Source: Akkermansiaceae bacterium (GTDB taxonomy: Bacteria; Verrucomicrobiota; Verrucomicrobiia; Verrucomicrobiales; Akkermansiaceae). Taken from it: a DNA stretch of 64,000 nucleotides. Made by a program: the position numbers and the translations under genes. Positions 33,654 through 43,129 of this stretch are shown in pieces. The notes under the pieces were generated by a model. It worked only from the letters and a program-made list of their open reading frames with translations. It did no database searches and was not told where the DNA came from. The stretch's first letter is position 1. Each line of letters opens with the position of its first letter. The stretch covers positions 1-64,000 of the forward strand of contig JAPKCM010000016.1 in assembly GCA_028822935.1 (NCBI GenBank), given 5' to 3'.

Positions 33654-33664
33654 CTTTCGTGCTC

Positions 33665-34010
33665 AAATCTCAAATCTCAAATTTCAATCCCCCTCATCCA
33701 AGTCAAATGCCCCCGCGGCCCCGCGTGAAACTTCCCCCAACCAAATTCCCACAAAACCTCTGCGTCTCAGCGCCTCTGCGTAAGCTTCCCCTCAACCAAG
33801 ATTAGCGCCATTCGCTAGATTCGCGTTCCAAAAACCCCCAACCAAGTTTTGAATATTTCGTCCCTTTAGCCGTTGGCTATCTCCGCTTCGCTACGGTTGT
33901 GGCTCAGCCCCTCCTCAACCAATCTGCGTCCTTCTGCGTAATCGGCGGATCAACCTCCACAACCAAGCCTCTCAAATCTCACTGTTCAAATCTCAGAGTT
34001 CCTCTACCCT
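33665..34010 (+). repeat. intergenic modular repeat block, copy 1
   Basis: Modules attagcgCCATTCGctagATTCGCGTTCC, TTTCGTCCCTTtagccgtt, CAAATCTCactgTTCAAATcTCagAGTTC separated by caacca-type spacers; same order as at 42.87-43.08 kb. Confidence 0.6.
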
Positions 34011-42867: not shown

Positions 42868-43078
42868 AACACAATCCCCTCATCAACCAAATCCCCCAAC
42901 CAAATCCCCCAACCAAAATTCGCCTCATTCGAATCATTCGCGTTCCCCTCTCCCTAGTCCCCAAGCTCCCACTCTCATCCCAAGTTTCGTCCCTTTCGTT
43001 CATTTCGTAGCCCCCCCCTCAACCACGTCCTTCAAATCTCATCCTTCGTGTTCAAATATCAAAGTTCGCCCCCCGCTT
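42868..43078 (+). repeat. intergenic modular repeat block, copy 2
   Basis: caaccaaatccccc runs, aattcgCCTCATTCGaatcATTCGCGTTCC, TTTCGTCCCTTtcgttcatttcgtag, CAAATCTCatccttcgtgTTCAAATaTCaaAGTTC. Confidence 0.6.
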
Positions 43079-43129
43079 TCCTTAAGCCTTCCAAATCTCC
43101 CAATCCCTGCTTATCACCGCCCTAACGTT

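Follow-up and report, generated by a model that had tools for sequence, protein, structure and literature searches.

The window, a stretch of 64,000 nucleotides, belongs to contig C116 in a draft genome of 4.59 Mb and carries two intergenic blocks of short, word-like repeats. The first (33665-34010) lies between hemB and a methyltransferase gene, and the second (42871-43080) lies near a gene encoding a RimO-like radical SAM protein. The words are present where the initial annotation had placed them, and the similarity that it saw between the two blocks exceeds chance: the summed top local alignments score 65.5, whereas 200 Markov-shuffled pairs reach at most 51.5 and 190 random pairs from the window at most 45.0. 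The features are given below, with type names that refer to two families of small ORFs, S23/four-helix bundle (PF05635) and GxxExxY (PF13366).

33662..33687, + strand: w1, CTCAAATCTCAAATCTCAAATTTCAA, heptamer-spaced with S23-type spacing, class assignment not significant
33757..33785, + strand: w2, CCTCTGCGTCTCAGCGCCTCTGCGTAAGC, right-hand GxxExxY-type word
33788..33829, + strand: w3 with its leader, CCCCTCAACCAAG + ATTAGCGCCATTCGCTAGATTCGCGTTCC, one of 13 genomic copies
33855..33868, + strand: w4, TTTCGTCCCTTT, short TTTCGTG-type word interrupted by another repeat
33921..33954, + strand: w5, AATCTGCGTCCTTCTGCGTAATCGGCGGATCAAC, right-hand GxxExxY-type word
33969..34002, + strand: w6, CTCTCAAATCTCACTGTTCAAATCTCAGAGTTCC, period-14 (2 x 7) word, S23 assignment not significant
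33738, 33793, 33839, 33916 and 33960 (span 33738..33966), + strand: five CAACCAA leaders or spacers
42884, 42897 and 42910 (span 42884..42916), + strand: three CAACCAA leaders or spacers of the second block
42917..42946, + strand: second w3 copy, AATTCGCCTCATTCGAATCATTCGCGTTCC, 3 mismatches, best GxxExxY flank L142 (score 17.5)
42984..43010, + strand: TTTCGTCCCTTTCGTTCATTTCGTAGC word of the second block, best GxxExxY flank L079 (score 13.0)
43030..43064, + strand: TTCAAATCTC...GTTCAAATATC word of the second block

By inspection, the units of w1 and w6 are spaced at 7/14 nt and those of w2 to w5 at about 8-16 nt. The blocks have neither an ORF nor left-hand words, and they contain no inverted repeat or inverted pair. 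Their predicted folds are not significant (z -0.46 and -1.65), promoter and terminator scans of the block gave nothing convincing and no promoter-like site, and the only match of Rfam covariance models in the window is a tRNA elsewhere, with no rRNA. All 14 occurrences of CAACCAA in the window are on the + strand, and 8 of them fall inside the two blocks. The + strand is also strongly C-rich (21,315 C versus 13,853 G; contig skews of -0.21, -0.11 and -0.14 for the window, C36 and C143, respectively), an excess that is unusually strong for a bacterial chromosome arm.

To follow the words beyond the window, genome-wide counts were taken from pattern searches and 0.4 Mb of genome stretches. The pattern ATTAGCNNCATTCGCNANATTCGCGTTC, with up to 3 mismatches, finds w3 at 13 places on 11 contigs, while the reversed-pattern control finds none; the genome-wide search that the initial annotation had set as a possible refutation of its observation therefore did not refute it. 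Nearly all 13 copies are preceded by the leader CCCCTCAACCAAG, and when aligned they form a unit of ~42 bp, CCCCTCAACCAAG + ATTAGCCCCATTCGCAAGATTCGCGTTC, with a sharp right edge beyond which the sequences are unrelated. Other words are often found next to w3, in an order that varies, with C-rich filler and CAACCAAG between them; the leader CAACCAAG was not seen outside this genome. The module order [ATTCGCG]-[TTTCGT]-[CAAATCTC] proposed in the initial annotation is common to both window blocks but is not general in the genome, since the TTTCGT word comes first at L241, L243 and L247 and a TCTGCG word replaces it at L242. Likewise, both blocks do lie just upstream of a + gene, but gene orientation is mixed around the 13 copies, where genes point either way. 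In contrast, it is always the locally C-rich strand that carries w3 (13 of 13 copies; GC skew -0.16 to -0.40), a bias with a chance of about 0.001 in a two-sided sign test that takes the contigs as independent. Across the phylum, the exact w3 pattern gave 2 matches outside this genome and 1 control match, indicating that the spelling of w3 is genome-specific and that an exact pattern is unfit to measure its prevalence. A regular-expression census of the words was too strict to be useful, and k-mer over-representation (Markov model, 0.4 Mb) did not bring them out because of their low copy number.

Several other recurring sequences accompany the words. The phrase AGCCGTTGGCTATCTCCGCTTCGCTACGG and its variants (CCGGCTATCTCCGCTTCGCTCCGG) stand inside or beside words; examples are at 33869-33906 in the window, where the phrase splits w4, at L242 (about +75 to +110 after the word) and at L246. 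A GC-rich, palindrome-like repeat, AAAGGAGTCGCGGCGCCCCGCCGCTTAGCTTCGCAGG with variants, adjoins several word blocks just past gene ends (L001, L240, L242, L245 and C36 near 77.9 kb), and another phrase, AAATGYCCTCGGGTGCAYTYC, recurs beside words at L241, L245 and L249.

Within this genome, S23 and GxxExxY small ORFs are mostly framed by similar phrases (e.g., TTCAACTTTCAACGCCCAACATTGAACATCC, AATCTGTGTTAATCTGTG and ATCCGCAGATTACGCAGATGGGCACAGATT). The framing was quantified in genomes of the phylum at 65 loci for GxxExxY and 69 for S23, with 22 ParE toxin loci as a small-ORF control. Every downstream flank was reverse-complemented and aligned with each upstream flank; the GxxExxY and S23 sample leans towards intact ORFs because loci were picked by best family score. 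Median scores within and between loci are 20.0 and 9.5 for GxxExxY, 17.5 and 9.5 for S23, and 9.0 and 9.0 for ParE. The permuted 95th percentile is exceeded by 86% of GxxExxY and 84% of S23 loci compared to 14% of ParE controls, and the top-scoring flank overall is the locus's own partner in 35/65, 36/69 and 0/22 cases, respectively. The left and right ends therefore agree inside one element and not between elements, and the plan is [word]-ORF-[inverted word]. GxxExxY elements (median length 475 bp) end in tandem words of about three units with a period of 8-11, such as AACCACGAAATACACAAAATACACGAAAG, ACCACAGAGGCACAGAGGACACAGAG and TTAACCGCCAAGGCGCCAAGAGCGCCAAG, and S23 elements (median 481 bp) end in heptamer words such as (AGGAGTC)n, (GGGAATC)n and (AGTTGAG)n, so that word type tracks ORF class; median termini are 33 and 31 bp, respectively. 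Word polarity across GxxExxY elements is 58:4, and the AATCTGTG words of the resident GxxExxY ORF L048 (contig C83) are opposite in polarity to nearly all others. DUF559 (PF04480) was considered as a third ORF class and rejected, as most of its matches in the sampled genomes lie in long open frames.

Matched ends also occur outside the phylum. A search of GTDB contigs with the pattern ATTCGCNANATTCGCGTTCC gave apparently intergenic matches in Anaerolineae and Gemmatimonadaceae, along with several others that look like chance hits inside genes. GxxExxY ORFs of Anaerolineae and Gemmatimonadaceae genomes have matched terminal words, the own partner being the best in 7/11; the CGCGAAT word itself ends a Gemmatimonadaceae GxxExxY element, and Anaerolineae contain short ORF-less hairpins made of the same word. 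The initial annotation was right to see the repeats as degenerate or modular and to suspect similar ones in further environmental bacteria, and the repeats are interspersed.

At junctions such as V-ATPase B/D, trpD/trpC, gatA/gatB, gltB/gltD and metK/ahcY, complete elements lie in the space that separates the stop codon of the preceding gene from the next start codon (neighbors were judged by eye, with gene names from reading translations rather than from family searches). Operon-like junctions are common but not the rule, as 29/46 scorable elements have tandem genes on their two sides. At V-ATPase B/D and at trpD/trpC, some genomes have an S23 element where another has a GxxExxY element (L131, L174, L181, L190; L092, L132). 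Elements are kept at orthologous junctions across genera, a persistence that is more stable than that of a typical mobile element. At such junctions, the two ends of one element score 0.64 (normalized) against each other and 0.30 against the ends of orthologues, a gap somewhat inflated because within-element segments were selected by mutual alignment. For example, three elements at one ABC-transporter junction end in CACGAAA words and a fourth ends in CGCGAAT words, at both ends in each case, and these are the spellings of w4 and w3 in the window, respectively. Element ends showed no target-site duplication above chance, and neither an empty site nor a mobilizing enzyme was found. The complete elements may be mobile.

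Family searches confirmed the two proteins as TIGR04256 (GxxExxY) and TIGR02436 (S23). The predicted GxxExxY model (pLDDT 96.4) is closest to the structure of SSO0001 (4ic1), which we take to be a Cas4 protein, with exonucleases and Holliday junction resolvases as weaker-scoring neighbors. D63, E73 and K75 are invariant in GxxExxY, as expected of an active PD-(D/E)XK nuclease. S23 matches the solved structure XCC0516 (2gsc), and S23 proteins are homologous by structure to Avd, a protein of diversity-generating retroelements (PMC10053308). The predicted RNA fold of the complete element L079 (z -5.04) closes in a terminal stem of about 31 pairs.

Several words of the window can be tied to the ends of such elements. 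The closest tie is w5, which agrees at 29/34 positions with the end word of L050, a resident GxxExxY ORF on contig C102, with a match score of 21.5 against a null maximum of 13.5. Together with w2 and w3, it is closer to GxxExxY flanks than to S23 or ParE flanks; for w2 the z values are 5.1, 0.2 and 1.3, respectively, and for w3 the z is only 2.2. CGCGAAT-type termini of the w3 kind are present on the GxxExxY elements L141, L142 and L256, and TTTCGTG-type termini of the w4 kind on L055, L064, L079 and L126. Within this genome, w3 was not found on any complete element. The sequence CCCCCTCAACCAAG stands directly before the right-hand word in L047 and L049, two of the small S23 or GxxExxY ORF loci of this genome. 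Neither w1, w4 nor w6 is significantly assigned to either element class, w4 being too short to score and w1 having its best S23 flank in L163 (score 16.0; group z 1.6).

The blocks do not have inverted, matched tandem-word ends around an ORF. Since they hold right-hand words only and no ORF, they are better described as orphan ends than as an element, and what had been read as a single element with ordered modules resolves into separate units, each word standing on its own and stacked beside the next. Given the matching of ends within elements in and outside the phylum, the agreement of word type with ORF class, the GxxExxY word polarity, the coordinated ends at orthologous sites, the L079 fold, the match of w5 to an L050 end, the GxxExxY-like character of w2, w3 and w5 and the 13 copies of w3 with common leader, edge and strand, the window words are probably the terminal repeats of two tiny, one-gene element classes, and the block a stack of their ORF-less right-hand ends, each with a short leader, on the C-rich strand. 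Counting against this reading are the missing ORF, left-hand words and fold in the blocks, the lack of a significant assignment for w1, w4 and w6, the absence of w3 from complete elements of this genome, the leader CAACCAAG, for which the reading does not account, the negative results for target-site duplications and empty sites, the merely fragmentary matches to Y1 transposase or reverse transcriptase, and the persistence of elements at orthologous junctions. The encoded protein would recognize the words and promote their copying, and the predicted terminal stem may let a complete element sit harmlessly in a transcript, by analogy with the S23-coding intervening sequence (IVS) of 23S rRNA that is excised by RNase III. 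Solo ends would then be non-autonomous copies that were truncated and went in mainly in one orientation with respect to the replication fork, presumably without a regulatory role of their own.

Three other explanations need to be weighed. The words could be binding sites or RNA motifs of a host regulator acting upstream of genes, with GxxExxY and S23 genes merely using the same regulator. Both window blocks lie just 5' of a + gene, and TAACTGA heptamers are often found just upstream of start codons, where a role in translational control has been proposed for them (PMC4679880). However, a shared regulator would not account for spelling that varies from element to element and from genome to genome but agrees between the left and right ends of each element, and orientation tracks the C-rich strand, not genes. 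With no significant fold and no conserved gene orientation, the regulatory reading has no support here; the block also lacks a promoter-like site, and we consider this explanation unlikely.

Repeats of the REP/REPIN type, mobilized by a RAYT (Y1) transposase, are a similarly unlikely explanation. A bias towards one replication strand would be in keeping with a single-strand transposase (IS200/IS605 family). The genome has two weak Y1_Tnp matches, its Y1 transposase and reverse transcriptase matches being fragmentary only, and the short, extragenic, hairpin-forming inverted pairs of other genomes do resemble REPINs (PMC3116915). The words, however, are tandem units and not palindromes, they frame GxxExxY and S23 ORFs in the tested loci, and the window blocks have no inverted pair. 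Local birth by replication slippage in C-rich intergenic DNA, with vertical inheritance and no insertion, is the least probable of the three: slippage can yield short-period tandem units, the window is strongly C-rich on the word strand and elements do sit at orthologous junctions in several genera, but leader, word and right edge are common to the 13 copies, which lie in unrelated surroundings on 11 contigs, two unrelated ORF classes at one junction require replacement or repeated insertion, and composition-keeping shuffles fail to reproduce the two-block similarity.

If the words are indeed element ends, a broader scenario becomes possible, which we put forward tentatively. One widespread kind of minimal mobile element may be built around either of two unrelated proteins, a PDDEXK-fold nuclease or an Avd-like four-helix bundle, each maintaining at the two ends a tandem word that matches itself and is freely re-spelled; the ends would be rewritten together by the protein or by a copying mechanism, ORF-less ends would spread on one replication strand, and the phrase-like and heptamer repeats of many phyla would derive from them. 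This suggests that several puzzling families of bacterial short repeats may share one origin. It also offers a candidate substrate for S23 and GxxExxY, two common uncharacterized protein families, and the coordinated re-spelling of both ends makes the mechanism of recognition or copying testable in laboratory strains. The S23-coding IVS of 23S rRNA (PMC4990558) and intergenic heptamers (PMC4692102, PMC4679880) are already known, and in the open-access literature, to which our search was largely confined, we found no link of such words to S23 or GxxExxY genes.

Among known systems, the S23-coding IVS of 23S rRNA (PF05635/TIGR02436, e.g., Coxiella burnetii) has the same ORF family as the S23 elements, a comparable total length (428 nt in Coxiella (PMC4990558) versus a median of 481 bp here) and terminal inverted repeats forming a stem of ~28-31 bp, which is predicted for L079 and absent from the window blocks. 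In contrast to the IVS, the elements here lie in protein-coding operons and other intergenic sites, end in heptamer words and share their plan with a second, unrelated ORF class, while the window holds orphan ends only, in the hemB/methyltransferase gap and not in 23S rRNA. REPIN/RAYT systems are likewise extragenic units with two inverted, hairpin-forming ends and compensatory change of both (PMC3116915), but here the ends are tandem words, not palindromes, and go with GxxExxY and S23 proteins instead of a Y1 transposase. The Avd protein of diversity-generating retroelements shares structural homology with S23 (PMC10053308; the 2gsc match), but unlike Avd systems, this genome yielded no complete reverse transcriptase. 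Finally, the cyanobacterial STRR, Xanthomonas GGGAATC and Beggiatoaceae TAACTGA repeats are intergenic, short and tandem with a period of 7, like the words of the S23 elements. The heptamer-repeat papers describe 70-75 close convergent (inverted) heptamer pairs in two Xanthomonas genomes (PMC4692102) and propose horizontal spread by a mechanism that is not known (PMC4679880), and text searches in them found no link to S23 genes. That link is drawn here, from one phylum only, and the association of such words with S23 and GxxExxY genes gives the heptamers of cyanobacteria, Xanthomonas and Beggiatoaceae a candidate origin.
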